A stretch of 40,883 nucleotides of DNA from Candidatus Eiseniibacteriota bacterium (GCA_030600655.1 JAUVLP010000010.1:1-40883), one strand, 5' to 3'. Numbered from the stretch's first letter, positions 25,787 to 40,883 are shown. Notes: generated by a model from the sequence alone, not told the origin. Program-made: numbers and translations.

Positions 25787-26390
25787 ACCCTCTCCACCAT
25801 CGTGCTGTCTGAGAAAGCCTCCGGCATCTGCGCGAGCTCCGCCATACCAAGTGTCTCCACACCTGTAGAGATGAACGACACGATTCTCGTCGACGGTGGC
25901 CTGATCAATCCTCTACCTGTCGGCGTAGCGAGAGGAATGGAAAGTGATTTCGTGATCGCCGTGGATGTCGGTCGTGCGACCACGGGTTCAACGACTCCTC
26001 CGGTTCTGCAGGCACACGAGACAAACAACGACTGCAACAGGGACAGTTCCAGCTCTTCGGTGGGAGTGCAGTTGTTCAAGTCCCTGAGCGACCTCATAGA
26101 TACACTCGACATTGCCCCACTGGCTGCCCTCCGCCGGCGCTCCCAAAAGATGCCTCTTCCGCACGTCTTTGAGGTGCTCATGGCCTCGATCAACATCATG
26201 GAGATGGAGATCACAGAGACGCGACTCAAGACTGAACCCGCTGATCTGCTGATCGATCCGCCCAGCGCTCGGGCACATCGGCTTCTTCGAATTCAACAGG
26301 GCCGAAGAAGCAATCGCTGGGAGCTACCGCGCTACGAAGGATGGACTCAACGCTCCCCCCGATCGCGGCCGTTTCCTCGTGCGCGACTAG
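25787..26390 (+). pseudogene. Remnant of a patatin-like phospholipase gene (5'-truncated, frameshifted)
   Basis: Read in the same frame as the nucleoside hydrolase and starting right after its TGA, the sequence encodes the C-terminal half of a bacterial patatin: ASSAIPSV, then LVDGGLINPLPVGVARGM with the catalytic Asp of DGG, and DFVIAVDVG. The N-terminal half with the oxyanion loop and the GxSxG serine is absent. Near 26261-26270 the frame shifts: after LLIDPP the family-typical LGHIGFFEFNRAEEAI continues in another frame and ends at the TAG at 26388-26390. The longest single frame would instead run through unrelated sequence to 26614. Loss of the nucleophile and the frameshift make this a decayed gene. 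Its end overlaps the radical SAM gene on the other strand by 44 bases. Confidence 0.82.
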
Positions 26391-27873
26391 ATAGAAATCT
26401 TGCCGGCAACCAGGTCCGGTGGCTATGCCCGGCCTCTTCTCCTGGCAGATCAGCATACTCTTTCCGCCAGATTGGGTCTGTCAGACGCTTGATCTCCTCC
26501 CCGTACTCCACCATCCCTTCACAATACACCGTGTCGTCCAAAGCTACTGCGGCCTCGTTGTTCAAAGGTTTTGCTCCGCTCTTCTCAATGGCTTCCTTTA
26601 CGATGGGGAAATGATCCCGAATCACACAGGGACACAACCAGTTGTCAACCTGCCCAGCTGCCCGATCGTATCCATACTCATCCTGCCATTTGCGTATGCG
26701 CTTGAAGAAATCCATGTCGAGCACCGTATTGAGGTCTCCCCCCGACTCGAAGACATCATATATGTTGCCGCATACGTACGGCACAAAGGCACAGGGAGTG
26801 ATGTCCCCGTTCCAATCGATGTAGAAGTAGCCATCCCCGCGCCCGGCTGCGATACATCCGCAGGACACAGCCCCACTGTTCCAGAAATCCGCGATGAAGT
26901 ACTTTTTCTCCACGACGAGCCGGAGCATCCGCTCACGCATCTCAACTCGCTGATCCGGCGTCGGCGCAAGATCCAGCGTCTGTCCGCGGCCGACAGGCAT
27001 ATACTGGAACAGCCACGCGAAGATCGCTCCCTGTTGCTCAAAGTAGAAATCGGCGAACTCATCACTTGTGATAAGTTCCCAGTTGTGGCGCGTCGGTGTC
27101 GCAGAGATGCCAAAGGGTACACCGTGCTTCCGAAGACTTCCCATCGCAGCAAGCACCTTGCGGTGAACACCTTTCCCCCGCCTCGCGTCCGTCTCTTTCT
27201 CGAATCCCTCGATGGATATCGCGGGCATGATGTTCCCAAGCTCACTCATGCGCTTTGCGGCTGCATCATCTATCAATGTCGCGTTGGTGTAGACCATGAA
27301 CATGTCGGAATCATGCTTCTCGACCATATCAAGGAAGTCCCGTTCCCCGTCCCGCCACATGAACGGCTCCCCACCCGAGATCACAGTGAAGTGGGACCTC
27401 CAGAGCTCTCGCTTCTCTGTCAGAATCCGGTCAAAGGTATCGAAATCCAAGCTTCCGTGCGTGCCGGGGTTACTCTCCGCATAGCAACCTTTACAGCGCA
27501 GATTGCACTTGCCGGTCGGACTCACAAGCACGAACTTCGGAGGGTAGAAACCAAGATTCTCAATGATCTCTTCTTTACTCTTCTTGGTCAGCATAACATT
27601 GTTCCAGAAGACATCCGCCATCCGACGTGCAACGTGTTCGCAGATCAGTGATTTCTCTACCGCTCTATCGAAACCCGTGATCATGGCCGTGAAATATGTG
27701 TAGATTTCTTCGTGGACTCCGTAAGGGCGCCTGGCTGGATTCTGCTTGACCATCAGCTTGTAGACTTGGTGTCCAATGTGGCTGGTGATGACTCTCCTTA
27801 TGTGTCGCTCCCTCGCCAGGTGCAAGGCCATCCCCCGTACCGGGCGACCTGCCAGAGTTGCAATCATGCTCAT
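26347..27873 (-). CDS. Radical SAM protein with SPASM-like C-terminal Fe-S region
   Basis: This is a 508-residue protein. After about 115 residues of helical N-terminal sequence, the radical SAM cluster motif is GKCNLRCKGCYAES (Cys 123, 127, 130), followed by ISGGEPFMW. The C-terminal third holds further Cys groups (VSCGCIAAG, ITPCAFVPYVCGN, NWLCPCVI), which fits auxiliary [4Fe-4S] clusters of the SPASM/twitch type. The substrate is not known. AGGAGGTGA precedes the ATG. The last 40 or so residues are Arg/Gly-rich and read through the antisense of the patatin remnant, so the natural stop may have been lost in the same rearrangement (inference). The TetR gene ends 45 bases upstream and is probably cotranscribed. 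Confidence 0.9.
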   Translation of the reverse strand: MSMIATLAGRPVRGMALHLARERHIRRVITSHIGHQVYKLMVKQNPARRPYGVHEEIYTYFTAMITGFDRAVEKSLICEHVARRMADVFWNNVMLTKKSKEEIIENLGFYPPKFVLVSPTGKCNLRCKGCYAESNPGTHGSLDFDTFDRILTEKRELWRSHFTVISGGEPFMWRDGERDFLDMVEKHDSDMFMVYTNATLIDDAAAKRMSELGNIMPAISIEGFEKETDARRGKGVHRKVLAAMGSLRKHGVPFGISATPTRHNWELITSDEFADFYFEQQGAIFAWLFQYMPVGRGQTLDLAPTPDQRVEMRERMLRLVVEKKYFIADFWNSGAVSCGCIAAGRGDGYFYIDWNGDITPCAFVPYVCGNIYDVFESGGDLNTVLDMDFFKRIRKWQDEYGYDRAAGQVDNWLCPCVIRDHFPIVKEAIEKSGAKPLNNEAAVALDDTVYCEGMVEYGEEIKRLTDPIWRKEYADLPGEEAGHSHRTWLPARFLSSRARGNGRDRGER

Positions 27874-27918
27874 TCTTCACCTCCTGTGCGCATCGCGCGC
27901 CACGGGAAACACTCATAA

Positions 27919-28536
27919 CTATCCGGCCAGGCTTCCCTTGAGAAACAGCTTTGATATTGTACTGATGTTATCCTCGTATGGGTGTCGTTTGGGGTCCTTT
28001 AGCCAAGACAGGAGGAATGCGTTTGTCAGCCCCTCCAGAGCAATGGCCATGTCGTGCGGGTCCAGATCTCTGAGAACCTTCGCCCGCACACCCTTCTCCA
28101 TCACTGATGCCAATCGCTCAATGAGATCATCGTGGAGCAAGTCTATCTCCTCGTGTAGTCCCGCTCTGAGGTTGAAGCTCACGCCTCCCGTCTCCGCGAA
28201 ATACAGGTAGAAGATCTCGATGTTCGGCGCGAACATCCTGCCTTTCGCGCTGATGTACGCGTTGAGGGCCGCAAGCACTTCCTGTTCCCTGGAGAGCACA
28301 TCTGTCAGTGTCCGATGGTACTCTCCCACCTTCTCCAGCATCGCGGCCTTGTAGAGATCCTCCTTGTTCGAGAAGAATCGGTAAATTGTTCCCAGCGCGA
28401 ACTCCGCTCTCTTCGCGATGGCCTTCATTGAGACGTGGTGATATCCCCTCTCCGAGAAGAGCTCAAGTGCCGCAGTGAGCATGTCTCCTCTCTGACGGCG
28501 CTTCTCCTTCTCTCTGCGTGAGAGCCCTGCCCCCAT
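27919..28536 (-). CDS. TetR/AcrR-family transcriptional regulator
   Basis: This regulator has about 205 residues. The N-terminal helix-turn-helix is clear: ALELFSERGYHHVSMKAIAKRAEFALGTIYRFF, followed by the NKEDLY helix. The C-terminal ligand domain is of usual length. The ATG at 28536 has GGGAGG eight bases upstream; a TTG two codons earlier lies too close to that site. It is followed by the radical SAM gene and preceded by a promoter at 28600-28627. TetR proteins usually repress their own operon, so it may control the radical SAM gene. Confidence 0.93.
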   Translation of the reverse strand: MGAGLSRREKEKRRQRGDMLTAALELFSERGYHHVSMKAIAKRAEFALGTIYRFFSNKEDLYKAAMLEKVGEYHRTLTDVLSREQEVLAALNAYISAKGRMFAPNIEIFYLYFAETGGVSFNLRAGLHEEIDLLHDDLIERLASVMEKGVRAKVLRDLDPHDMAIALEGLTNAFLLSWLKDPKRHPYEDNISTISKLFLKGSLAG

Positions 28537-28599
28537 GTTCAAGCCCTCCCATCATTGGAACCACGTGGATAGCTGCTCAAAAATAGAACATATCGTCAT

Positions 28600-28735: not shown

Positions 28736-29341
28736 CTAGCCCTGCCAGTCCTCCGTGATGTATACCTCCCGCCTGCACGACGGACACAGAACCCTGTATG
28801 CATCCCCTCTCCCGAGCGGTTTGTCGCCACGCACCGACGGATCGGTCGTTGCATCAAGTTCCATGTTCAAAGCCGTTACAAGAACAGGATTGGCTACGGC
28901 CAGCGAGCCGGTCTTCCGCGCGATCCACAACAGATGTTCCCGTGTCGTGATCACTCCACCGCACGACTCGCACCGGACGAGTTCCTTCTCGATTTTCGTC
29001 ACGGCTTGTTCCCTATCGAAGACCGCAAGCTCGAATTTCTCATTCGAGAGGATGATGCCCTTTGTGGTTGTACAGTACGCCTCGCATTGGCCGCAATAGA
29101 TGCAATTGTCAAAATGGTGAACCAGTGTTCTGGTGTTACCCTCGTCCAATACGTCGATCGTCCTGGCTGGGCATACCTCCGCACAAGCCCCACACCCAAT
29201 ACAACCATCCTCTTGGAACTCCGGCTGTCCGCGAAAGGCGTCAGCCGGCTTCAAGGGGGTGAACGGGTACGAGGTCGTATACGGCCCCTTGATCACAGCG
29301 GTGATCGCTTCCTTCAACTCCCGCACCTTTGGTGTCTTCAT
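28736..29341 (-). CDS. mbhN: NuoI/HycF-like ferredoxin subunit of the membrane-bound hydrogenase
   Basis: This 201-residue protein has two [4Fe-4S] motifs, CIGCGACAEVCP and CIYCGQCEAYCT, as in NuoI, HycF and MbhN. These subunits pass electrons from the soluble donor to the small subunit. The C-terminal part carries two more CxxC pairs (CESC and CPSC) with the spacing of a zinc-ribbon-like knuckle, as in HycF-type proteins. AGGAG lies five bases before the ATG. It is the last gene of the operon; in Pyrococcus-type mbh operons the corresponding gene is also last. Confidence 0.9.
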   Translation of the reverse strand: MKTPKVRELKEAITAVIKGPYTTSYPFTPLKPADAFRGQPEFQEDGCIGCGACAEVCPARTIDVLDEGNTRTLVHHFDNCIYCGQCEAYCTTTKGIILSNEKFELAVFDREQAVTKIEKELVRCESCGGVITTREHLLWIARKTGSLAVANPVLVTALNMELDATTDPSVRGDKPLGRGDAYRVLCPSCRREVYITEDWQG

Positions 29342-29368
29342 GGCTGCTCCTGTCTTCGTCGATAGATC

Positions 29369-29707
29369 CTACCGACCGGTGTCTTCCTTGTACTTGTCGA
29401 CGATCGAGCCTTCCCACAGCTTAACGCCGGCAATGTGCGCCCCGCGAGCAAGAGCATGGCTTCCGGTCGGGGACGTCCACAGCACGAAGATCGCCGCCAG
29501 GAGCGCTTTGATGCCCATCGCGTTCCATCCTGAGTGCACGAGCACCCCGATAAGGATGAGAAACGTGCCGAGTGTGACACACTTCGTCGCAGCCTGAAGC
29601 CTGTTGTAGACATCGGGGAGTCGAATCAGTCCGAGCGCACCAACAAGATCAAACGTAACACCGATAGAGATCAGGATGATGGGTACCAGTCCTATCTGAC
29701 TACTCAT
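29369..29707 (-). CDS. mrpG: Mrp/Mnh cation:proton antiporter subunit G
   Basis: This small membrane protein has 112 residues and three hydrophobic helices. The first carries VPIILISIGVTFDLVGALGLIRLPDVYNRLQAATK, characteristic of MrpG/MnhG (and MbhC). The ATG at 29707 is chosen because GGAGGGGAGGGG lies just upstream and overlaps the end of mrpF by eight bases; a longer reading frame into mrpF is not needed. It works with the other Mrp subunits to exchange cations for protons. Confidence 0.92.
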   Translation of the reverse strand: MSSQIGLVPIILISIGVTFDLVGALGLIRLPDVYNRLQAATKCVTLGTFLILIGVLVHSGWNAMGIKALLAAIFVLWTSPTGSHALARGAHIAGVKLWEGSIVDKYKEDTGR

Positions 29708-29954
29708 CGAATCCCCTCCCCTCCAGGTACTTCGCCAGGGCCAGCGTCGCGATGAACGAAAGCAGGGCCCAGGCGATGGCAATGTTGAGATAGAAATCTT
29801 GACCGGTCACAATTCCAAAGACACCACAGATCCCCACCACCATCACACCGATCGTGTCTATCCCAACCGCCCTGTCGGGTGGCGTTGGTCCCTTTGCTAC
29901 CCTGTAGAGGCACATGAAGCACCCCATGATCAGCAAGAACAGGATTACGGTCAT
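29700..29954 (-). CDS. mrpF: Mrp/Mnh cation:proton antiporter subunit F
   Basis: This 84-residue protein has three transmembrane helices, and the signature KGPTPPDRAVGIDTIGVM defines MrpF/MnhF/MbhB. The start codon shares its A with the TGA of mrpE (TGATG), a form of tight translational coupling. The stop overlaps the start of mrpG. Confidence 0.94.
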   Translation of the reverse strand: MTVILFLLIMGCFMCLYRVAKGPTPPDRAVGIDTIGVMVVGICGVFGIVTGQDFYLNIAIAWALLSFIATLALAKYLEGRGFDE

Positions 29955-30457
29955 CAGTCGAACACCCTCCTCAAGGTAACCTCGAAGCGACCCGCGATGT
30001 CCTTGGTAATCGCCTCCGCATCCTCGAGATTCTCGTGGACATTGATCCAGTGTACATAGAGCCAGTCGTCGATGATGTCGATGGTCAGTGTACCCGGTGT
30101 CAGTGTGATCGAGTTCGCGAGAAACGCTTTGGCCTCGTCACTCTTCAGTGTCGTTTTGATCTTCACGATTCCCGGTCGGATAGGCAGGTTCGGATGAAGC
30201 ACTCTGTAGAGAACATCGAAATTGGCCATGACAATCCAGAACAGGAGCGAGATCAAATGTATTATCGCCCAGAACCATCGCACCGGACTGAAGAGCCTCT
30301 CCGCCCCCTTCGGCAGGAGACCCGACAGTGCAAGCGCAAACACCATCGCCAGCACCGCCCCCACAACCACTCCCTGCCAGTCGAAAGACCACGTCAGAAG
30401 CAGCCAAAGGACAAAGTAGATTACGAAATCCAGGAGCCTTCGCTTCAGTGTGTCCAT
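29954..30457 (-). CDS. mrpE: Mrp/Mnh cation:proton antiporter subunit E
   Basis: This 167-residue protein has two or three N-terminal hydrophobic helices (DFVIYFVLWLLLTWSFDW, GAVLAMVFALALSGL, FWAIIHLISLLFWIVM). A cytoplasmic domain follows with the MrpE signature KTTLKSDEAKAFLANSITLTPGT and DDWLYVHWINV. The ATG at 30457 has AAGGAG five bases upstream, so the longer frame to 30508 is rejected. It lies 16 bases after mrpD and overlaps mrpF by one base. Confidence 0.92.
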   Translation of the reverse strand: MDTLKRRLLDFVIYFVLWLLLTWSFDWQGVVVGAVLAMVFALALSGLLPKGAERLFSPVRWFWAIIHLISLLFWIVMANFDVLYRVLHPNLPIRPGIVKIKTTLKSDEAKAFLANSITLTPGTLTIDIIDDWLYVHWINVHENLEDAEAITKDIAGRFEVTLRRVFD

Positions 30458-30473
30458 CAGTGCTCCTTGTCCT

Positions 30474-32006
30474 CTATCCGAGGACCAGCTGGATATACTC
30501 CGCGCCATTCATGAGAGCGTCGCGGGCCGGCTCCAGAATATGCACCCCTATCACGGGGTAGAGGAGTCCGAACCCGACGCAGGCTATCGCCAGTAGGATG
30601 AGAGGCACATACATGAGAGCGGGAACCTCCCTTGCCTTCTCAACCAGCTTCGATACGGTCCCGTAGAGGATCTCGCGCTGGACTTTGATATAGTAGGCCA
30701 GTGTCACAAATGCGAAGACGATGGCCACGATCGCAATTGCCGTGTACCCGGCCTTGACTGTAGCGACCAGGATCACGAGCTTGCTCCAGAATCCGCTGAA
30801 TGGAGGTACTCCAGCGATGGAGAGCGCAGCCATGTTTGTTGTGAACGCCGTGATCGGCATCTTCTCTCTCAAGCCGCCCAGCTGCTTCATGTCTCTGGTC
30901 CCGGTCGCATGCTGGATAGCGCCGGATGAAAGGAACAACAGGGACTTGAACGCAACATGGTTGAACATATGAAAGAGGCCGCCCAGTATCGCAAGTCCCG
31001 CGATGGAGATCTGCCCACCGGTCGCGAGCACGCGCGCGCCTACTCCGATTCCCAGCATGACGTAACCGATCTGGCCGATCGAACTGTACGCCAGGAGCCG
31101 CTTGTAGTCCCACTGGCCGATCGCAAGAATGCCTCCGATGACGATCGACAGGAGCGCGAACGCTATCATAGCGTTTGCGAAAATAACACTGCCTGCACCA
31201 CCAGCTGCTATGCCGTAGACGTTGAAGAACACACGACAGATCGCGTAGATGCCCAAACTCTTAATGACTACACCCGAGAGCATCGCCGAGATCGGCGCGG
31301 GAGCCGAAGGATGCGCATCAGGAAGCCAAGCGTGGAACGGCACAAGGGCTGCCTTCAGACCGAAACCCATGAGGAAAAACGCTCCGGCAAGAAGCAGTCC
31401 CGGATTCATCTGGCCGCCAAATTGAGTCGCGATCTCTCTCGCCACGTCGGCCATATTGAGACTGCCGGTAACCGCATAGACCGTTCCGATGCCAAACAAC
31501 AGCATCACCGATGCAACGCTACCGAGGATGAGATATTTGAAGCCCGCCTCGAGTTCCTCGGCGCCGACTCCGAACGCGACAAGAGCATATGACGCGATCG
31601 ACGCTACCTCGAGGAACACGTAGAGATTGAAGAGGTCTCCCGACACAACCACCCCGTTCATCCCGGCAACCATCAGCATGAAGAGCGAGTAGTACTTGGT
31701 GAGGCCCGTGTATCTCTGCATGTACTTGATCGAGAAGAGGACACAGAGGAATCCCACCAGGTTGATCGCTATGAGCAAGAGAGTAGAAAGACCGTCGCTG
31801 ACAAGAGCGATCCCCCAGGGTGGTGGCCAACCTCCCATGTGATACACGGCCGCCGGCCTGCCAACCTGCAGCACCGCCATGATCCCCAGTATCAGCGTGA
31901 ACAGGGGGGCAAGTGTCTCTCCGCTCTTCTTCCACCAGAGCCCCAGAAGAGGGATGAGAAAGGCCGCTCCGAGCGGGATCGCAACATAGAGTGGTAAAGG
32001 GTTCAT
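30474..32006 (-). CDS. mrpD: Mrp/Mnh antiporter subunit D (NuoN/MbhH-like proton channel)
   Basis: This 510-residue protein has about 14 transmembrane helices and belongs to the NuoL/M/N-MrpA/D antiporter family. Key charged residues of the proton path appear in FLEVASIASY (Glu), GLKAALVPFHAWLPDAHPSAP (Lys), QWDYKRLLAYSSIGQIGY (Lys), and FHMFNHVAFKSLLFL (His and Lys). GAGGGGA precedes the ATG and lies at the very end of mrpC, with a three-base gap between the genes. Translation of this subunit is thus likely coupled to that of mrpC, which matters because mrpC carries an internal stop. Confidence 0.95.
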   Translation of the reverse strand: MNPLPLYVAIPLGAAFLIPLLGLWWKKSGETLAPLFTLILGIMAVLQVGRPAAVYHMGGWPPPWGIALVSDGLSTLLLIAINLVGFLCVLFSIKYMQRYTGLTKYYSLFMLMVAGMNGVVVSGDLFNLYVFLEVASIASYALVAFGVGAEELEAGFKYLILGSVASVMLLFGIGTVYAVTGSLNMADVAREIATQFGGQMNPGLLLAGAFFLMGFGLKAALVPFHAWLPDAHPSAPAPISAMLSGVVIKSLGIYAICRVFFNVYGIAAGGAGSVIFANAMIAFALLSIVIGGILAIGQWDYKRLLAYSSIGQIGYVMLGIGVGARVLATGGQISIAGLAILGGLFHMFNHVAFKSLLFLSSGAIQHATGTRDMKQLGGLREKMPITAFTTNMAALSIAGVPPFSGFWSKLVILVATVKAGYTAIAIVAIVFAFVTLAYYIKVQREILYGTVSKLVEKAREVPALMYVPLILLAIACVGFGLLYPVIGVHILEPARDALMNGAEYIQLVLG

Positions 32007-32009
32007 TGG

Positions 32010-32357
32010 CTATCCCCTCAGCTTGCTGATCACGGACATGTCAAAGGTCCCGTGCTTCTCGTAGAGCCGAATGCACATCGCCACCATGAGTGATAGAACC
32101 CCCAGGCCGATAACGATGGATGTGAGCACCATCGCTTGTGGAAGAGGATCCACGAAACGCTCAAGTGTAGCAACGGGCATGTCCGGTTCGATGATCGGCG
32201 CCACGCCGCCGGTCTTGTACCCGATGATGATGAGATACAGATTCACGGCGTAGTCCATAATAACTATGCCGAGAACCTACTTCACGATGTTCTTCTTGGC
32301 CACGAGACAATAGAGCCCCATTGTCAGAAGAACTACGCATAGGAAATAGACGGTCAT
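32010..32357 (-). pseudogene. mrpC: Mrp/Mnh antiporter subunit C (NuoK/MbhG-like) interrupted by an in-frame TAG
   Basis: The full frame would encode 115 residues. It starts at ATG 32357, which overlaps the stop of mrpB as ATGA, and encodes VYFLCVVLLTMGLYCLVAKKNIVK. An amber codon TAG follows at 32279-32277 (codon 27). The same frame then continues with VLGIVIMDYAVNLYLIIIGYKTGG, which is exactly the next conserved MrpC helix, to a TAG at 32010-32012. No frameshift is involved. An ATG at 32258 could restart translation, but it has no ribosome site and would lose the first helix. TAG ends many other genes here, so it is not a sense codon genome-wide. The gene could be truly broken, read through, or affected by a single-base sequence error. 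Confidence 0.85.
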
Positions 32358-32809
32358 GCTAGTTCATCCTCGATCATGGCCCTGAAGGAACGTCTACGGA
32401 AGATCGCCAGCGCCGAGAAGACCAAGAAGAGCGAGCTGGAAACCTTGAACGCTATGGCGATATTGAGCGGCAGAATCATCCCCGAACTCAAGAGCCGGAA
32501 GACTTCCCCTCTGCCAAAGGCGTTCATAAAGAAGGCACCGACTGTTACGCCAAACCACCCGATGAGCAGGAACGCGAGAGCTCCACCACTGTCGATGATG
32601 TGGGCTGCCTTCTCGGGCAACTTGGAGAAAGCCACGTCCTTCCCATGCGCCAGCATCGCAAGAATGAATGCGCATGCGATGATCACGCCCCCCGCGAATC
32701 CCCCTCCCGGTGTCAAGTGACCATACAGCACAATATACACGCCGAAAACGATGATGAAACCAACAACGAAGTCCGTGATCGTCTTAACGATAAGAGTCAT
32801 ACCGATCAT
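32354..32809 (-). CDS. mrpB: Mrp/Mnh antiporter subunit B (MbhF-like)
   Basis: This is a 151-residue membrane protein with four helices. The signature GHLTPGGGFAGGVIIACAFIL marks the MnhB domain. The ATG overlaps the stop of the preceding gene by four bases (ATGA) with GGAGGT nine bases upstream, and the stop overlaps the mrpC start in the same way. Confidence 0.94.
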   Translation of the reverse strand: MIGMTLIVKTITDFVVGFIIVFGVYIVLYGHLTPGGGFAGGVIIACAFILAMLAHGKDVAFSKLPEKAAHIIDSGGALAFLLIGWFGVTVGAFFMNAFGRGEVFRLLSSGMILPLNIAIAFKVSSSLFLVFSALAIFRRRSFRAMIEDELA

Positions 32810-33363
32810 GCGGCGACCACCTCCTCTTCCTTCCTCTTCCCATCTCTTCTCAACAGAGCCATCGCTCCGAGAATCGAGGTGAAGAGCACCGAGGCCTCAC
32901 CCATCGTGTCGTATGCCCGGAAATCCAGAATCACCGCTGTGACAATGTTGGCGCAGTACGTTGCCGGCAGTCCCGTGTGCACATACACCTTCGACACACG
33001 CATGACCGGCTCACCAAACTCCGGGAAGCCCCTGCCACCGAATATCATCGCCCCGAACCCAAGGAGCAACCCAAAGAAAATCAGTGATGTCACGACCGCC
33101 AGCGTATCTCGATGCGATTCGACCGCCGTATTGTCAAGAAGGATCGTCCCCCTGATCAGGATGATCAGTACGAGAACTTCGACAACAAGCTGTGTGATCG
33201 CGATGTCGGGCGCTCCAAGAAAAAGGAACGCGACAGACAGCGCGAAACCGACCGCAGCCACCGAGATCACAGCGGACAGGAGGTTCCTGGTCTCAATGGC
33301 CACAACCGATCCCACGATCATGAACACCAGGAGTGCATAGAGCTGAGGAGTGATATTTTCCAT
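32806..33363 (-). CDS. MbhD-MbhE-like fusion (C-terminal domains of MrpA)
   Basis: This 185-residue membrane protein joins two modules. The N-terminal part (about 1-80) is DUF4040/MbhD-like: NLLSAVISVAAVGFALSVAFLFLGAPDIAITQLVVEVL. The C-terminal part (about 125-175) is MbhE-like: YCANIVTAVILDFRAYDTMGEASVLFTSILG. In canonical Mrp systems both modules are the C-terminal end of MrpA, and in Pyrococcus Mbh they are separate small genes. Here they are fused to each other but separate from the NuoL-like subunit encoded just upstream. GGGAG lies before the ATG; the gap to the NuoL-like gene is 54 bases. Confidence 0.88.
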   Translation of the reverse strand: MENITPQLYALLVFMIVGSVVAIETRNLLSAVISVAAVGFALSVAFLFLGAPDIAITQLVVEVLVLIILIRGTILLDNTAVESHRDTLAVVTSLIFFGLLLGFGAMIFGGRGFPEFGEPVMRVSKVYVHTGLPATYCANIVTAVILDFRAYDTMGEASVLFTSILGAMALLRRDGKRKEEEVVAA

Positions 33364-33417
33364 TAACTCGTCTCCCGCCTGTCTTGAACAACCTTGTGTG
33401 TCATCCCAGAATGCCTA

Positions 33418-35307
33418 CTACTTGCCTGCCATCTCCTTGAGCAGTGCCGTAAGCACTGCGAACACTATCGCGCCGAGACCGATGACGCACCACGCGAGGT
33501 ACGTCGACAGGACGCCACTGTGCAGCGATCTCAGTGCTTGAACAAAGACATCGCCGATCCGGCCCCCAACCACATGCACATCGAACACCTTCTGCTCGGC
33601 GTTCATATAGAAGTCCTTGAACGGAGCCATCTCTTTGATCGTGTTGTAGAAACCGGTCCCCGGCACACGCATTGCATCCATACGCTCCGGCGGCCTGACG
33701 CCACCCACGAAAATGCGTCCGACCCGGCGAGTCGTAAACTTGCCTACAAACACTACGACCAGACCCATAATAATACCAACAATGATAAGACTCGTCGCAC
33801 CCGCAGAATCCCAGAAGCCCATCGTGCCGGCGATACCATCCACCGATGCTGAGCCGACCGCCCCATGAACAATCGGGTCGATGAATCTGTCGATTGGGAA
33901 TTTCGCCCATACGCCGAAGAGGATGCAGAGACCGGCAAGAACCAACATCGGAACCCGCATGAACCAAGACGATTCTCTGACGTGGCTGAGCGCACTCGGC
34001 TGCTGCCCAAGGAAGGCCGAATACAGAACCTTAACGAACGATGCAAGCGTCAGCGCGCTCCCGAAGACCGCCACCAGAACGAAGATCCAGTACGCGCTGA
34101 ACCCCCTGTTCCCGAGTTCAACGATGCCTGAGTAGATCATCCACTTCGAAACAAAACCGTTAAAGGGCGGCACGCCTGAAATCGCCAGAGCCGAGATCGT
34201 CATCGTAATGAACGTGACCGGCATCAACTTGGCAAGGCCTCCAAGCTTCGATATCTCGGTCGTCCCGGTCTGTTTCTCGATAGACCCGGCCCCCAGGAAG
34301 AGGCCCGCCTTGTAGATCGCATTGTTGAGCATGTGAAAGAGCCCGCCGGCAATGGCCAGGGGAATCCCTGTACCGATGCCGAGTATCATATACCCGACCT
34401 GACTGACTGCGTGATACGCGAGCAGGACCTTGAGATCGTGCTGGATGAGCGCCATCATCACTGCCGCGAATATAGTCACCGCACCGATGATCATCAGCAC
34501 CAGAGACAGACCCGGCCCGATGCTGAAGATATCAAGGCTGATTCTCGCAAGAAGGTAGATGCCTAGAAGCTTGTCGATCGATGCCGGAAGGAGTGCCATG
34601 ACCGGAGTCGGCGCGCCTTTGGCCGCGGCCGGAACCCAGGTATGGAACGGCATTGCGCCGGCCTTAGTGATGGCGCCGATCATCAGCAACAGGTAGATGA
34701 AAGTGGACGTCCCGTCCCCTACGAATATCCTGAGGTGACTCATCGAAAGGGTGCCGTAATTGACCCAGATAAGAGCAACAGCAAGGAACAGCGCAGCATC
34801 GGAGAATCCCAGCATGAGGAAACTCTTGGACGCTCCCGCCGAGGCCTCGTCCTTCTTCCGGCCGAGATTGATATACAGGAAAAGAATTGCGGTCAGCACC
34901 TCCCAGAAAATAAGGAGGACGAGCAGGCTGTTCGAAAGCACCGCTCCACAGCTGGCTGCCACGGTCCAGAGTAGATAGGCATAGTAGCGCCTGCCATCGT
35001 GCTCCTTCTCGAGCCAGCCGATCGAGTAGATCCCTACGCCGAGACCAAACAGTGCTATGAATATTATGACAAAGGCACTGAACTGGTTGAGCAGGAGATC
35101 AAACTGAATGTCAAGGCCGCCAAACACCATCCAGTCCGTCGTAAGCGAAAGCGGCCACTGTCCGAATAGCTGGAGCGCCGCTACGAACGCCCACGCGGTG
35201 CCCGCGAGTGCGATCACCTCCCTGACACCTTTGACCCGTCCAGGCACAAAGAGACAGAGCAGGCCGGCTATGGCAGGGATAACTATGGGAACCAGAATCT
35301 GTGGCAT
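33418..35307 (-). CDS. NuoL/MrpA-N/HyfB-like antiporter subunit
   Basis: This 629-residue protein has about 16 transmembrane helices and is the second antiporter-like subunit of the operon. Functional residues appear in LIFWEVLTAILFLY (Glu), ITKAGAMPFHTWVPAAAKGAPTP (Lys), LIQHDLKVLLAYHAVSQVGY (Lys) and FHMLNNAIYKAGLFLG. The C-terminal 120 residues contain a long amphipathic stretch and a final helix, as in NuoL- or HyfB-type subunits. GGGGGA precedes the ATG and the gap after the large subunit gene is 18 bases. It should translocate protons or sodium, driven by hydrogenase electron flow. The combination with a separate MrpD is discussed in the findings. Confidence 0.93.
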   Translation of the reverse strand: MPQILVPIVIPAIAGLLCLFVPGRVKGVREVIALAGTAWAFVAALQLFGQWPLSLTTDWMVFGGLDIQFDLLLNQFSAFVIIFIALFGLGVGIYSIGWLEKEHDGRRYYAYLLWTVAASCGAVLSNSLLVLLIFWEVLTAILFLYINLGRKKDEASAGASKSFLMLGFSDAALFLAVALIWVNYGTLSMSHLRIFVGDGTSTFIYLLLMIGAITKAGAMPFHTWVPAAAKGAPTPVMALLPASIDKLLGIYLLARISLDIFSIGPGLSLVLMIIGAVTIFAAVMMALIQHDLKVLLAYHAVSQVGYMILGIGTGIPLAIAGGLFHMLNNAIYKAGLFLGAGSIEKQTGTTEISKLGGLAKLMPVTFITMTISALAISGVPPFNGFVSKWMIYSGIVELGNRGFSAYWIFVLVAVFGSALTLASFVKVLYSAFLGQQPSALSHVRESSWFMRVPMLVLAGLCILFGVWAKFPIDRFIDPIVHGAVGSASVDGIAGTMGFWDSAGATSLIIVGIIMGLVVVFVGKFTTRRVGRIFVGGVRPPERMDAMRVPGTGFYNTIKEMAPFKDFYMNAEQKVFDVHVVGGRIGDVFVQALRSLHSGVLSTYLAWCVIGLGAIVFAVLTALLKEMAGK

Positions 35308-35325
35308 CTACTTTCCCCCGAGCTT

Positions 35326-36498
35326 CTAGAGGTTCTTCCTAAGCCATTCGGTCCTCTGGTGACTCAGCTTTATGAGATCGTGTCCGTTCGCGACCCTGCT
35401 TCCGTCAGAATCTATCGCGGCCATCCGCTCTGTGCAGCTATAGCACGGATCGATAACGGCGAAGATGAGCGTTGCGTCCGAGATGGTCTCACCTTTCACG
35501 CGCGGTCGATAAGACGGGATATTCAGGAAGGTCGGCGCTCTCATTTTGTGTCGCTCCGGCATGTTCGTACCATTGGAGCGGATGAAGTGAAAGCACTCCC
35601 CTCGCGGCGCCTCGATATGCCCGATTCCCTCACCCCTGGGAATTTCGCGCACCTCGTTTCTGATCTCTCCCTTTGGCAGCTTCTTGATGCATTGCTTGAT
35701 GATCTTGGTCGCTTCGATCATCTCAAGAAGTCTGACCACTCCTACTGCCAAGCAGTCCCCGTCGGGCTGGACTATCACTTTCCAGTCCACTTCATCGTAA
35801 GCACCATAGGATTCGTCGCGACGAACGTCGATATCGACACCTGAACCCCTCGCGGTCGGACCAAGCACCCCATAGGCGATCGCGTCCTCTTTGCTCAGAA
35901 TGCCGACGCCCTTGAGGCGACAGAGTATCACTGGGTCGTTGAGGATGACGTCTATAAGGAGATTTGTTTTCTCTGCGAACTCGTCCATCGCCTTCACAAT
36001 TGGCGGCCAGATGTCATCCGGGACATCGCGCCTGACACCGCCAGGGCAGTACCACGCGTAGTTGTTCCGGTTGCCTGTGATAGCCTCGAGTGCATCGAGA
36101 ACCGGCTCACGGTACTTCCAGCCCCACATGAAGACGGTCCAGTACCCAATAATGTGTCCGGCAAGGCCCACCCAGAGCATATGACTGTGGAGCCGCTCCA
36201 GCTCGTGGACAATAGTCCTCAGGTAGCGCGCTCTGTCCGGAACCGTGATCCCCGCGATGTCTTCCATAGCAAGGGTCGCCGTCCAGCTGTGTGAAGCCGA
36301 ACAGATACCGCAGATCCGCTCAACCAGGAACACGTCCTGGTCGAACGTCTTCTCCTCGGCCAGAAGCTCCATCCCCCTGTGGATGCGCCCCAGTTCTATG
36401 TCGGCGCTGACCACGGTCTCTCCCTCAACCTGCAGAGTGATGTACTCCGGCTCCTCGAGGACGGGATGAAATGGCCCAATGGGAATAGTAGTGCTCAT
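35326..36498 (-). CDS. mbhL: Group 4 [NiFe]-hydrogenase large (catalytic) subunit, NuoD/MbhL-like
   Basis: This 390-residue protein is the catalytic subunit. The N-terminal nickel motif is RICGICSASHSW (Cys 63 and 66) and the C-terminal one is DPCYSCTER (Cys 352 and 355), so all four Ni-Fe ligands are present; complex I NuoD proteins lack them. The enzyme makes or uses hydrogen at the cytoplasmic side of the membrane. After Arg 358 there are 32 residues (MAAID... to RKNL), the expected extension cleaved by a HycI-type protease. The ATG directly follows the TAG of the NuoC-like gene, with GAGGAG about ten bases upstream. Confidence 0.96.
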   Translation of the reverse strand: MSTTIPIGPFHPVLEEPEYITLQVEGETVVSADIELGRIHRGMELLAEEKTFDQDVFLVERICGICSASHSWTATLAMEDIAGITVPDRARYLRTIVHELERLHSHMLWVGLAGHIIGYWTVFMWGWKYREPVLDALEAITGNRNNYAWYCPGGVRRDVPDDIWPPIVKAMDEFAEKTNLLIDVILNDPVILCRLKGVGILSKEDAIAYGVLGPTARGSGVDIDVRRDESYGAYDEVDWKVIVQPDGDCLAVGVVRLLEMIEATKIIKQCIKKLPKGEIRNEVREIPRGEGIGHIEAPRGECFHFIRSNGTNMPERHKMRAPTFLNIPSYRPRVKGETISDATLIFAVIDPCYSCTERMAAIDSDGSRVANGHDLIKLSHQRTEWLRKNL

Positions 36499-36927
36499 CT
36501 ATTCATCTCTCCTCATTGGATGAAAATCCGCCGGCCTGTCGTGAGAAGAGAGGATCTTGCGTGGGTCCGGGTGGCCGACAAATTCGACACCCAGAAAGTC
36601 AAAGATCTCTCGCTCGATGAAATCCGCGGCAGGATAGTACTTTGTGAGCGCCTCTATCTTCGGAAACGGCTTGTCGAGAGTGGTCCTGATGTTCACCACC
36701 GTGCCCTCACGGTCGAATGCGAAGTGGTACAGGAGTTCCACCCCCGTCGACCGGTCACTCCCCGTTGCCGTCGTAAGCCTCCCACCCTCCACCTCGTACA
36801 TGTGCCGCGTCACAGCAATCCAGTCGGCGTTCGAGACCGCCACATATGCCCGTTTTGGGCTCTGCTCGTGGATGTCCACGCGGTCTCCGAACTTCATCCT
36901 CAAGGCCTCGAGAACCTTCTTGCTCAT
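36499..36927 (-). CDS. mbhK: NuoC/MbhK-like hydrogenase subunit
   Basis: This is a subunit of about 142 residues. It shows the NuoC 30-kDa signature: LLYHFAFDREGTVVNIRTTLDKPFPKIEALTKYYPAADFIEREIFDFLGVEFVGHPDPRKIL. NuoC-type subunits help attach the large and small subunits to the ferredoxin arm. ATG 36927 is chosen because it begins a family-like MSKKVLEALRMKFGD and has GGGGAG ten bases upstream; the open frame further upstream overlaps the small-subunit gene and encodes unlikely Gly/Arg-rich sequence. Confidence 0.9.
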   Translation of the reverse strand: MSKKVLEALRMKFGDRVDIHEQSPKRAYVAVSNADWIAVTRHMYEVEGGRLTTATGSDRSTGVELLYHFAFDREGTVVNIRTTLDKPFPKIEALTKYYPAADFIEREIFDFLGVEFVGHPDPRKILSSHDRPADFHPMRRDE

Positions 36928-37001
36928 CGTCTCGTCACTCCCCGAGCCCGGGCCGCATCCGGCGATCCTGCGCCGCGATTCGACCGCGCTCTCCTGTTTC
37001 G

Positions 37002-37415
37002 CTAGAGCTTCCCCAAGAGCTTCACCACCGCACCGATGATCGCCTCTGGGCGCGGCGGACAACCCGGGACGTACGCGGCGACCGGAACGTGCTTGTCAAC
37101 CGGCCCCGCGAAGTTGTACCCGTCCTTGAAGATCCCGCCCGTACACGCACACGCACCAATAGCTATCACCACCCCCGGCTGGGGTAGCTGTTCGTATGCT
37201 TCAATAAGATCGGGCACAACCCTTCGCGGTACACTGCCCGAGACCAAGAGCACGTCGGCGTGCTTCAAACTACCGACCAACTTCATACCGAAGCGCTCTA
37301 TGTCGAACTTGGGGCACAGACAATCGAGAACCTCGATGTCGCAGTTGTTGCACGCGCCCGCGTTCAGGTGAAACACCCACAGTGACTTCTTGAATCCCCA
37401 TTTGGTTGCGTTCAT
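37002..37415 (-). CDS. mbhJ: Group 4 [NiFe]-hydrogenase small subunit, NuoB/MbhJ-like
   Basis: This 137-residue protein carries the proximal [4Fe-4S] cluster: LNAGACNNCDIEV (two Cys), IAIGACACTGG (Cys) and YVPGCPPRPEAI (Cys), as in NuoB, HycG and MbhJ. It hands electrons to the Ni-Fe site of the large subunit. The short length without a twin-arginine signal is typical for group 4. ATG 37415 is chosen because GGGGAG lies three bases before it; a GTG at 37448 would add 11 residues. Confidence 0.94.
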   Translation of the reverse strand: MNATKWGFKKSLWVFHLNAGACNNCDIEVLDCLCPKFDIERFGMKLVGSLKHADVLLVSGSVPRRVVPDLIEAYEQLPQPGVVIAIGACACTGGIFKDGYNFAGPVDKHVPVAAYVPGCPPRPEAIIGAVVKLLGKL

Positions 37416-37437
37416 TTGCTCCCCGTCCGCTCTCGAC

Positions 37438-38376
37438 CTAGAACCCAAGGATCGCCAGTATCATGCTGACGACTGCGATCACGGTAACGGGCCCCCAGAA
37501 GAACCTGACGGCCTGATCGATTCTTACTCTCGGGTTCACGTTCTTGATGAGGACAATGATCACGATGATTATCACATACTTCACGATCGTGTAGAGGATG
37601 CCCCAACCTGAGAAGACCAGCCCGCCCCAGAAAACCGTAATCAAGAAAATGGGCAGCGTGAAGAGCATCATGGCTTGCTGGAGCTTGATGACGGCAAGCG
37701 CCGCGCCCGAGTATTCTATGTGCGTTCCATCCATGATCTCGGTATCGGCTTCGGGAATATCAAACGGTGGATACGTGAGCTTGGCCTGCGTAACAAGGAT
37801 GCACACGATGAACGCGAGAATGCAGGAGACGTTGCCGAGAAGCGCGCCGTTAGCCGCCTGATACTCAAGGATGCCGTCCAAACGCAGTGTCATCGGAGAC
37901 ACCTTGGTGACGGCTGTGAAGATAGCAATGATGAACGGAAGCTCGTAAGCAAGAACCAGCTTCATCTCGCGACTGGCGCCTACGCTCGCAAGTGGATTAC
38001 TGGAGGCCGAGGCGCCAAGGATGATCCCCAATGAAGGAATGGTTAGCAGGTAGATGACGCCGATCAAATCTCCTACGAAACTTGTTCCGTGCAGATTCGT
38101 GAGCCAGAGGATTGTGGAAACCACACCTATGGCTGCGAAGCCGGCCATGGGGGCGAAGAGGAATCCCGCTCGTCTCGCACCCGCTGGGACAATTATCTCT
38201 TTGCCCAGGAGCTTGAGGATGTCGGCGAACGGCTGGTACCACGGTGGGCCAACCCTCCACTGAACCAGAGCGCTCACCTTCCGGTCGATCCACTGCGTCG
38301 CCAGTCCCATTACGGCCGTGAAGAACAGGCCAGGGAAGATGAGAAAGCTCAGAACCAACCCGAGTGTTGAAGCCAT
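37438..38376 (-). CDS. mbhM: NuoH/HycD/MbhM-like membrane anchor subunit
   Basis: This 312-residue protein has eight transmembrane helices and anchors the hydrogenase arm to the antiporter arm. Conserved blocks are DRKVSALVQWRVGPPWYQPFADILKLLGKE and the acidic loop TYPPFDIPEADTEIMDGTHIEYSG, both typical of NuoH and its hydrogenase relatives. GAGAGGT precedes the ATG. The gap to the small-subunit gene is 22 bases. Confidence 0.94.
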   Translation of the reverse strand: MASTLGLVLSFLIFPGLFFTAVMGLATQWIDRKVSALVQWRVGPPWYQPFADILKLLGKEIIVPAGARRAGFLFAPMAGFAAIGVVSTILWLTNLHGTSFVGDLIGVIYLLTIPSLGIILGASASSNPLASVGASREMKLVLAYELPFIIAIFTAVTKVSPMTLRLDGILEYQAANGALLGNVSCILAFIVCILVTQAKLTYPPFDIPEADTEIMDGTHIEYSGAALAVIKLQQAMMLFTLPIFLITVFWGGLVFSGWGILYTIVKYVIIIVIIVLIKNVNPRVRIDQAVRFFWGPVTVIAVVSMILAILGF

Positions 38377-38430
38377 CCTGTTACCTCTCTCGTTGACTTG
38401 AATGCAAAGGGGTCTCTTCCGACTGGTCCG

Positions 38431-38913
38431 CTACCTCGTCCTCCGCACCGTCTTCATCACACTACGGGACCCGCGCATCGGAACGCCCTTCTGAGCCTCC
38501 ATGTCGCTGATATCCTCGAAGGTCCGAGCTCCCGAGACACACGTCCCGGCGCACATTGAATCTTTCCCCTCGAGCGTCCGCCAGTTGCAGAGATCGCACT
38601 TCTCGAGTGTGTGCCGCGTCTTCAGGAGATCGATGGCTCCAAAGGGGCACGCCTGCGCACACGATGTGCAACCACTGCACTTGATGTTGCTTCGAACGAC
38701 CAGGCCGTCGTCGCGGCGTTTGATCGCCTCCTGAGGGCACGCCGCTTCGCAGAGCGGCAGCTCGCAGTGCCGGCAATTCATCTGCAGCACGATGTTCGTC
38801 ATGATCGGCGAAGCCTCGAGCTGGTTCTGCATGTTGTGCGAGTAGAAGCATGCCGCGAGGCAGCTCTTGCAGCTGATGCAGCGCCCGTAGTCCAGGACGT
38901 TTCTGTTGTTCAT
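38431..38913 (-). CDS. Four-cluster ferredoxin (HycB/CooF/FdhB-like)
   Basis: This 160-residue protein has 16 Cys in four groups suited to four [4Fe-4S] clusters: CISCKSCLAAC, CRHCELPLCEAACP, CSGCTSCAQACP and CDLC...CAGTC. Proteins of this DmsB/HycB type link a molybdopterin subunit to a hydrogenase or quinone module. Its place between the molybdopterin subunit and the NuoH-like gene suggests it carries electrons from one to the other. AGGAG precedes the ATG. Confidence 0.93.
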   Translation of the reverse strand: MNNRNVLDYGRCISCKSCLAACFYSHNMQNQLEASPIMTNIVLQMNCRHCELPLCEAACPQEAIKRRDDGLVVRSNIKCSGCTSCAQACPFGAIDLLKTRHTLEKCDLCNWRTLEGKDSMCAGTCVSGARTFEDISDMEAQKGVPMRGSRSVMKTVRRTR

Positions 38914-38971
38914 CCAGCTCTCCTGCGAATCACGCTTCTGCAGGCCGCCTGTAGCGGCCCGGCGTCAGCCG

Positions 38972-40660
38972 TTAACCCTCTGACTTGATTTTCACGTCGG
39001 AGGAGGTCACGTCGAACCATTTGGTGCTGGGGTTCAAGGTCCAGACCATGAGCCCCCGCGCATCCGGAACATACGTGGGAACACCCACAAGCCCCGGCGG
39101 CATCCTGTCGGTCACCGTTGTAATTATGCGCGTTTCACCTCTGGCGGTTGATATCACCGTTATCGATCCCTGCTCAATGCCCGCCTCGGCCGCAGCTTCT
39201 TCAGAAACCCACACTTCACAGTATGGATTCTGCGTCTGCGGGAAACTCATCCGCCCTGTCAGTGTCCCATCCCATCGGTGAAGCGGACTGATGGTTTCTA
39301 CGAGTCCAAGCCCGTCTCCCGGCTTGCTCGCCGTTTTCGCGAGCGCAGCATCAACGTTCACATCCAACTCCTGGTGCGTAGCCGGCCCTGCAACGACAGT
39401 AATCGCCGTTCCTATCTCGGACGCGACATCGGCGAGCATTCCACCGACAGACTTCGCGTCACCCTGAGGCCTGACACACGCATCAAGCGATGTCGAAAAA
39501 CCAAACGATGGCGTGTAGCTCCCCTTGAACTCCGTCCAGACCGCCAGTGGCAGCCCGACCTCACTGTGCTTCGTGGTATCGTTCTCGAAGATTGCGGAGG
39601 CGGCGAGGAAGTCGAGGTTCTCCAGATCATCCGGACTGACTGCCCCGGGGTAGAGTTGCACGGGGTCAGGACCGAATACCATAAGTCCCTTGATGCGTTT
39701 GTCCGCGACGCCGGCCAGGATCTCGGCTGCCGTGCAGTCGGAGCTCACGCGCTCATATGCGCCGATGGTGTTCCCGCCCCGGAATAGCGGCGCGTACTTG
39801 CCACCCGCTGCCGACGCGAGCTTGGCTGCGAGCATGCCCGTCAGATAACCAGACGTTGAATCGCCAAGCCTCGACGAGACTACAACCACGACCTTGTGGA
39901 AGTTACGGAGCCTTGTGGCCACTCTCTCGAGTCCGACCTTCGACATCCCACCCGCTGCGGCAGCCGCCTCGATATCCACCTGCGGCGAGCCTTGTACGTT
40001 CATGGCCTTGAGCAGACCGGCCAGAATGAGTGGCTCGCTCCCGACCGGCGGTTCGATGTGCAGGTCGGCAAACCAGTCTGTGTTGGAGCGGTATGGATTG
40101 ATGGTGATAATCTGATTGGATCTGCTCTTGTGCCTCGCCTCGATGATGCGTTTCGATACAGTTGGGTGCCCCCAGAACACGTCGCCGATCAGGACAAAGC
40201 AGTCCGCTTCGTCGAGATCCTCCGGCGTCGCGTTGCCGATTCCGCCGCCCGTGAGCAGTCCGTAGTCGTTGCCGTCGTAGGCAACACCTATGTTTGTGGT
40301 GCCAAGAACGTGTGTAGCAAAACCCACGGCTGCCTCGTAGTCCTCGTTCGAGAGCTCCGTCCCGACGATGACGCCTAGCGCACCCGCACCGTGCTCTTTC
40401 TTTATCTCGTCTATTCTCCCGGCCATCTTCGTCACCGCAACAGGCCACGGCACTCTCCGGCGGTTCACTGTCGCCGCAAGGAATCGCTTTGGGTGAAGAA
40501 GTATCTCGAGGTTGTAGTGCCCTCTGGCGCAGAGCGCACCACGGGCCAGAGGCGACTCCTCATCGAAGTCCACCCTCACGGGCACCCCCTGGTCGACCTC
40601 CACGCTGAACCCACACTGGAGGGAGCAGATGAGACAAGACGCCTTTCTAATCTCTGGCAT
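38972..40660 (-). CDS. Molybdopterin-oxidoreductase/NuoG-like subunit, no catalytic Cys/Sec seen
   Basis: This 562-residue protein begins with a [4Fe-4S] motif CLICSLQC (Cys 9, 12, 16) plus Cys 44 in GALCARGH. The bis-MGD-type core follows with EDYEAAVGFATHVLGTTNIG, DEADCFVLIGDVFWGHPTVSKRI and INPYRSNTDWFAD, and it has a C-terminal cap like other DMSO-reductase family members (NPYCEVWVSEEAAAEAG, PPGLVGVP). In formate dehydrogenases a Cys or Sec lies where this protein reads AYDGNDYGLLTGG; none is present, nor is there an in-frame TGA. It may thus be an electron-transfer subunit like NuoG, or bind cofactor for another reaction. AGGGGA precedes the ATG. The next gene upstream encodes a flavoprotein. 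Confidence 0.85.
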   Translation of the reverse strand: MPEIRKASCLICSLQCGFSVEVDQGVPVRVDFDEESPLARGALCARGHYNLEILLHPKRFLAATVNRRRVPWPVAVTKMAGRIDEIKKEHGAGALGVIVGTELSNEDYEAAVGFATHVLGTTNIGVAYDGNDYGLLTGGGIGNATPEDLDEADCFVLIGDVFWGHPTVSKRIIEARHKSRSNQIITINPYRSNTDWFADLHIEPPVGSEPLILAGLLKAMNVQGSPQVDIEAAAAAGGMSKVGLERVATRLRNFHKVVVVVSSRLGDSTSGYLTGMLAAKLASAAGGKYAPLFRGGNTIGAYERVSSDCTAAEILAGVADKRIKGLMVFGPDPVQLYPGAVSPDDLENLDFLAASAIFENDTTKHSEVGLPLAVWTEFKGSYTPSFGFSTSLDACVRPQGDAKSVGGMLADVASEIGTAITVVAGPATHQELDVNVDAALAKTASKPGDGLGLVETISPLHRWDGTLTGRMSFPQTQNPYCEVWVSEEAAAEAGIEQGSITVISTARGETRIITTVTDRMPPGLVGVPTYVPDARGLMVWTLNPSTKWFDVTSSDVKIKSEG

Positions 40661-40685
40661 GTCGACTTCCCCTGAGAGTGATCGC

Positions 40686-40883
40686 CTAGAATGGATCCTC
40701 GAACTTGGAGACTTCCGCTGCTGTCATAACGGGTCCATCCTTACAGATGTAGAGTTCGCCCATCATGCAGTGTCCGCACTTGCCCAGTCCACAGCTCATG
40801 TTGCGCTCCATCGAGTGGTAGATGTTCTCAGGCTTGAAGCCTTTCTCCAGAAGCGCCATATTGACAAATTTCAGCATGATCGG
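40686..40883 (-). CDS. FAD/NAD(P)-dependent oxidoreductase with [2Fe-2S] tail (partial, C-terminal end)
   Basis: Only the C-terminal 65 residues lie in the window; the gene continues past the right edge. PIMLKFVNMALLEKGF is the last part of the NAD(P)-binding domain, and SCGLGKCGHCMMGELYICKDGPVM is the [2Fe-2S]-binding Cys pattern of the dihydroorotate dehydrogenase PyrK/sulfhydrogenase gamma (HydG) family. Such proteins move electrons between NAD(P)H and Fe-S partners using FAD. It ends 25 bases before the NuoG-like gene and is probably in the same operon. It suggests that NADH or NADPH feeds or drains the complex. Confidence 0.88.
   Translation of the reverse strand, partial: PIMLKFVNMALLEKGFKPENIYHSMERNMSCGLGKCGHCMMGELYICKDGPVMTAAEVSKFEDPF

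Follow-up and report, generated by a model that had tools for sequence, protein, structure and literature searches.

What feeds electrons into the membrane-bound hydrogenase encoded at the end of a 40,883-nucleotide stretch of DNA from Candidatus Eiseniibacteriota bacterium (GCA_030600655.1, JAUVLP010000010.1:1-40883)? Positions 28736-40883 of this stretch, the whole of which is here called the window, hold a single minus-strand operon in which group 4 [NiFe] hydrogenase genes are joined by genes for an Mrp-type antiporter, a ferredoxin, a molybdopterin-enzyme-like protein (Moly) and a flavoprotein. For group 4 enzymes, HydDB gives formate, CO or ferredoxin as donors; an earlier note on this DNA had suggested NAD(P)H, perhaps jointly with ferredoxin by a bifurcating route, and had called the input module unusual. 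Every gene that it named was identified in place on the minus strand with Pfam and NCBIfam models, and the complete order is hydB-hydG-moly-hycB-nuoHBCD-mrpA'-mbhDE-mrpBCDEFG-nuoI (17 genes). The product is probably a reversible, ion-pumping NAD(P)H:H+ oxidoreductase of 17 subunits, in which Moly would act as a molybdopterin-free, NuoG-like relay. The window is the whole of contig C13 of a metagenome-assembled genome (MAG; G000; 2.6 Mb, 99% complete, 248 contigs) of an uncultured sediment bacterium whose family includes Ca. Effluviviacota. The accessible part of the 2024 description of this phylum presents its members as fermenters from seeps that carry mrp genes and group 4 [NiFe] hydrogenases, and makes no mention of the hydrogenase input module (PMC11323493).

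The window ends inside the input module. The last 65 codons of hydG (AsrB/HydG-like), including its [2Fe-2S] motif, lie at 40686-40883, and the first 221 codons are found on contig C164 (L054), whose end overlaps that of the window by 17 nt with one mismatch and which also carries hydB. These upstream genes, on which the earlier note had staked its idea, are neither unrelated nor those of a standard formate dehydrogenase (FDH), and no normal FDH lies beside the operon upstream on C164. Relatives whose contigs continue show hydB-hydG-moly-hycB in unbroken succession; HydB occurs in all 20 genomes of the family and Moly in 18, the contig ending at that point in the other two. HydG has predicted FAD/NAD(P) and [2Fe-2S] domains and HydB predicted Fe-S domains, the set expected of a sulfhydrogenase-type NAD(P)H module. 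The closest solved structures are the beta subunit of Pyrococcus furiosus sulfhydrogenase I for HydB (9nez_B, 1.2e-40) and the gamma subunit for the HydG of a relative (P0002; 9nez_C, 6.9e-49); since both proteins score below the NCBIfam equivalog cut-offs, they are homologous rather than orthologous to the sulfhydrogenase subunits. NuoE and NuoF partners are absent from the operon, both on C164 and in the operons compared, and HydB and HydG stand in their place. Beyond hydB, C164 carries HflK/HflC-like and CDF-transporter-like genes; in several genomes (L054, L023, L026), genes named by eye for two proteins like HflK/HflC and one like a CDF transporter immediately precede hydB.

How constant this input is was revealed by a large-subunit search of 386 genomes (20 from the family and 366 sampled outside it), from which 40 neighbourhoods were inspected, together with two from a search with Moly. 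The same operon type occurs in 27 of the 366 outside genomes, across 23 families according to the genome family codes of that search, and the 17-gene order recurs in other genera of the family as well as in other families, so that the operon is not a chance assembly. Only six of the 27 outside operons contain moly. In the remaining 21, hydG abuts hycB (gap -306 to +175 nt), which identifies HydBG as the constant input and moly as an optional insert. The suggestion of a flavoprotein input with NAD(P)H as donor thus gains support from these moly-less operons and from the sulfhydrogenase type of HydG and HydB, while the label 'unusual' does not hold: a HydBG input is found in a wide range of bacteria, and Saganbacteria RX5A had already been noted to have an operon with these genes, with no donor assigned (PMC6349859).

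Phylogenies tell a similar story. Hydrogenase cores of this operon type group in one clade (support 100/100), as do its HydBG modules in a tree of their own (support 97); since each tree recovers a single clade, hydrogenase core and HydBG appear to have been inherited together. Operons with moly make up one clade of the HydBG tree (support 99, all with moly), and the corresponding clade of the hydrogenase tree (99/98) also holds one long-branch row without it, L132. The simplest history, on weakly rooted trees, would be a single event in which a hydrogenase already linked to HydBG took up an FDH-like protein. The same data bear on the idea that the complex is an ordinary ferredoxin-driven hydrogenase of the Mbh type, with HydBG as a side branch that uses H2 or ferredoxin, for example, to make NAD(P)H. 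Ferredoxin could bind at the NuoI-like subunit, and Pyrococcus Mbh (HydDB group 4d) works in this way; yet HydB, HydG and HycB stand first in every operon whose start is visible and share its inheritance, and P. furiosus MbhL falls outside the 42-row clade of large subunits, a placement that involves one reference and long branches. We consider this arrangement unlikely. In other loci (L145, L149 and L146), HydB-HydG genes adjoin another kind of group-4-like complex, one with several subunits of the MrpD type, and in L145 and L149 the HydB-HydG pair also has an FDH-like neighbour.

What, then, does Moly do where it is present? The gene (38972-40660, 562 aa) encodes a protein whose AlphaFold model (pLDDT 91.7) matches the folds of FDH, Nap and NuoG; the predicted structure reaches a TM-score of 0.82 against FDH, and its family-model score is nearer to FDH than to NuoG (123 versus 49 bits). 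Among 23 sequences, the N-terminal cluster ligands C9, C12 and C44 never vary, and position 16 holds either Cys or Asp. The earlier note had observed that the Cys/Sec of FDH is missing; this is borne out, and the catalytic His has gone as well, in all Moly proteins compared. An intact FDH encoded in genome G379 (L080) reads RLCHSS where Moly has neither Cys nor His; this gene, too, adjoins HydBG, and no hydrogenase gene was found in its locus. The catalytic residues of Thermococcus onnurineus Fdh3 are Cys-His-Arg (PMC8965080), of which Moly keeps the Arg (Arg294), and only in the family of the window; Moly is also about 100-150 residues shorter than FDHs. With the N-terminal ligands conserved and the catalytic pair absent, the cluster site seems to have been kept while the active site was lost.

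The biosynthetic background points in the same direction. MoaC, a marker of molybdenum cofactor (Moco) synthesis, is absent from 25 of 26 genomes: from 19 of the 20 in the family, the source genome included and G006 being the exception, and from all six outside genomes with moly (94-98% complete); the search was positive in 11 of 14 controls. MoeA exceeds its cut-off in one of the 20 family genomes, again G006, and is missing from the source genome, which thus lacks both markers tested for making the cofactor. HypD is present in the source genome and in 18 of the 20, so the hydrogenase can be matured, whereas the means to make a molybdopterin enzyme are apparently lacking. A statistical association between moly and the lack of Moco genes was dropped because MoaC is rare in moly-less genomes too (7/21), and we therefore use only the absence itself. 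A hidden FDH donor elsewhere in the source genome was ruled out, the sole FDH-like match being the NuoG-like half of a transhydrogenase.

Could Moly nonetheless use Mo or W to act on formate or some other substrate? Its FDH-like fold, the alignment of Arg294 with the catalytic Arg and the MoaC and MoeA genes of G006 would fit such a role; the loss of Cys and His throughout, the shortened chain and the near-universal lack of MoaC make it very improbable, and as a catalytic molybdoenzyme Moly was rejected. The best reading is a non-catalytic, molybdopterin-free relay or scaffold comparable to NuoG in complex I: it has the FDH fold and the N-terminal cluster ligands of such a protein, and the absence of Moco itself is suggested by the missing MoaC and MoeA.

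Taken as a whole, the complex would connect NAD(P)H with H+/H2 by electron transfer at the membrane and couple this transfer to ion translocation, probably of Na+, through its Mrp-type subunits. Electrons from NAD(P)H would enter at the FAD and [2Fe-2S] centre of HydG, pass through the [4Fe-4S] clusters of HydB to the N-terminal [4Fe-4S] cluster of Moly, which would relay them without catalysis, and continue via four HycB clusters, two clusters of the NuoI-like subunit and the NuoB cluster to the NiFe site. We infer this path from cluster counts and by analogy with formate hydrogenlyase, and the cofactor use, the ion, the stoichiometry and the direction are likewise proposed. Hydrogen formation from NAD(P)H releases energy only when H2 pressure is low, so either direction is possible for the complex, with H2 evolution expected under such conditions.

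The bifurcating route of the earlier note, in which NAD(P)H and reduced ferredoxin are used jointly with the HydG flavin as the bifurcating site, finds a precedent in Nfn-type enzymes, whose flavoproteins are related; the genome's Rnf and its Nfn-ABC-like enzyme also indicate ferredoxin metabolism. Against it stand the single predicted FAD, the single linear Fe-S chain and the lack of a second donor module or electron branch in this operon or any of the 27 others, and we discard it as improbable. The Rnf genes (rnfC, rnfD, an rnfG-like FMN-binding protein and an Rnf/Nqr membrane subunit) lie in L155 (G000:C21). The other enzyme (L063 4962-10713, G000:C63) is a transhydrogenase of Nfn-ABC/Stn-like type that combines a NuoF-like protein with a GltD/NuoG-like fusion (~1280 aa), and it adds a further FDH-fold domain to a genome that lacks both MoaC and MoeA. 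Together, Rnf and this enzyme link the NADH, NADPH and ferredoxin pools. At another locus, an aldehyde dehydrogenase beside a PduS-like Complex1_51K protein (L156 6559-8479) suggests a microcompartment.

Several points weigh against the NAD(P)H-fed, Moco-free complex proposed here. The sequences do not distinguish NADH from NADPH as donor; sulfite reductase (AsrAB) also relies on homologues of HydBG; ferredoxin might enter at the NuoI-like subunit; Rnf and the Nfn-ABC-like enzyme could share the redox work; the rooted tree has a single Pfu reference; G006 does have Moco genes; and the mrpC gene of the source MAG is interrupted by an in-frame stop codon.

The remaining subunits conform to a group 4 enzyme. 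Downstream of moly follow the hycB-like ferredoxin gene (38431-38913; 16 Cys for four [4Fe-4S] clusters), which scores best with HycB3 of the hydrogen-dependent CO2 reductase, and, from family models, a nuoH-like membrane subunit (37438-38376). The nuoB-like small subunit (37002-37415) probably starts at the ATG at 37415, in a reading frame open to 37448, and the nuoC-like subunit (36499-36927) at the ATG at 36927, in a frame open to 37062. The nuoD-like large subunit (35326-36498) carries RICGIC and DPCYSCTER followed by a C-terminal tail of 32 aa; both CxxC pairs (RxCGxC, DPCxxCxxR) are kept throughout the clade, and its best structural match is P. furiosus Mbh (6cfw_L). At the far end, the nuoI/HycF-like protein (28736-29341; two [4Fe-4S] clusters and a C-terminal CxxC...CxxC, Cys 124, 127, 186 and 189) scores best with formate-hydrogenlyase iron-sulfur models. 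With these motifs, the NuoB/C/D/H/I-like set and antiporter-like subunits, the enzyme is by its sequence a group 4 [NiFe] hydrogenase; it is not of class 4b, with neither an active FDH nor, among the annotated operon genes, a CO dehydrogenase, and it is not placed with Mbh (4d) in a tree with one Pfu reference and long branches. In group-4-like large subunits from other types of operon, the second Cys of the L1 motif CGIC gives way to an in-frame TGA (L145 8274-8276, L149 10470-10472, L143 10382-10384), which probably encodes selenocysteine; hairpins lie just downstream of these sites, and only one beats shuffled sequences. In known NiFeSe enzymes the selenocysteine is found in L2.

The Mrp gene content is complete, as the earlier note had said, with MrpA split into a 629-aa NuoL-type protein (33418-35307) and an MbhD/MbhE fusion that corresponds to its C-terminal part (32806-33363). 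These are followed by mrpB (32354-32809), mrpC (32010-32357), mrpD (30474-32006, 510 aa), mrpE (29954-30457, probably from the ATG at 30457 in a frame open to 30508), mrpF (29700-29954) and mrpG (29369-29707). What that note had missed is an in-frame TAG in mrpC at 32277-32279, where all family relatives compared have Lys; this could be a real nonsense mutation or a single-base consensus error in the MAG. The TAG might signal that the operon is decaying in the source organism, an improbable state given that its other genes in the window are open and conserved and that a consensus error could explain the TAG. Recoding was considered and dropped: the mrpC site is Lys in relatives, and a TAG in the moly gene of genome G002 sits two codons ahead of the normal end. 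Directly downstream of the operon, a TetR regulator and a radical SAM/SPASM protein are encoded at 26347-28542 (minus strand), with no match in the ten relatives' loci scanned.

We give about even chances to a broader proposition: that HydBG-linked, Mrp-coupled group 4 hydrogenases make up a widespread class of NAD(P)H:H+ respiratory complexes that has no name so far. In one branch of this class, a recruited FDH would have lost its cofactor and turned into a relay like NuoG, repeating independently the way in which complex I acquired its NADH arm. If so, an NAD(P)H-fed, ion-pumping member in 23 outside families, in a sample of 366 genomes, would alter the energetics of fermentation in uncultured bacteria of sediments: oxidising NAD(P)H with release of H2 would be energy-conserving when H2 pressure is low, and NAD(P)H could be formed by taking up H2. 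Since the complex occurs in two forms, with Moly and lacking it, a long-standing question becomes testable, namely by what route a molybdoenzyme becomes a relay that, like NuoG, has no cofactor.

The literature searched contained no named NAD(P)H-fed, Mrp-linked hydrogenase; the one operon to surface was the group 4 hydrogenase region of Saganbacteria RX5A, listed in 2019 as enigmatic and with an unknown donor (Matheus Carnevali et al. 2019, PMC6349859). The accessible part of that account likens the region to Mbh and notes relatives in Zixibacteria and Omnitrophica, without mention of the active site, Moco or a moly-less form; as far as searched, the moly-less form, the breadth of distribution, the missing Moco markers and the NAD(P)H assignment are new. 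T. onnurineus Fdh2-Mfh2-Mnh2 (HydDB 4b) likewise unites an FDH-type module, a group 4 hydrogenase and an antiporter in one cluster (PMC8965080), but its FDH is active, whereas Moly has lost the catalytic pair and the present operon begins with subunits of the NAD(P)H type. T. onnurineus Fdh3, an NADP-dependent FDH, combines an FDH-type catalytic subunit, Fe-S proteins and an NAD(P)-binding flavoprotein, and differs as a soluble tungsten enzyme with intact Cys-His-Arg (PMC8965080). P. furiosus Mbh shares the Mrp-linked membrane [NiFe] hydrogenase, but is fed by ferredoxin and its large subunit lies outside the present clade; P. furiosus sulfhydrogenase I (HydBGDA, group 3b) shares the HydB and HydG input subunits, but is soluble, has no antiporter and belongs to another hydrogenase group. 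Complex I (NuoEFG with NuoBCDHI) resembles the present complex in its NAD(P)H flavoprotein, its FDH-derived, Moco-free subunit, its hydrogenase-like arm and its antiporter subunits; by comparison, the complex described here would use HydB and HydG in place of NuoE and NuoF, retain the NiFe site and reduce H+ instead of quinone.
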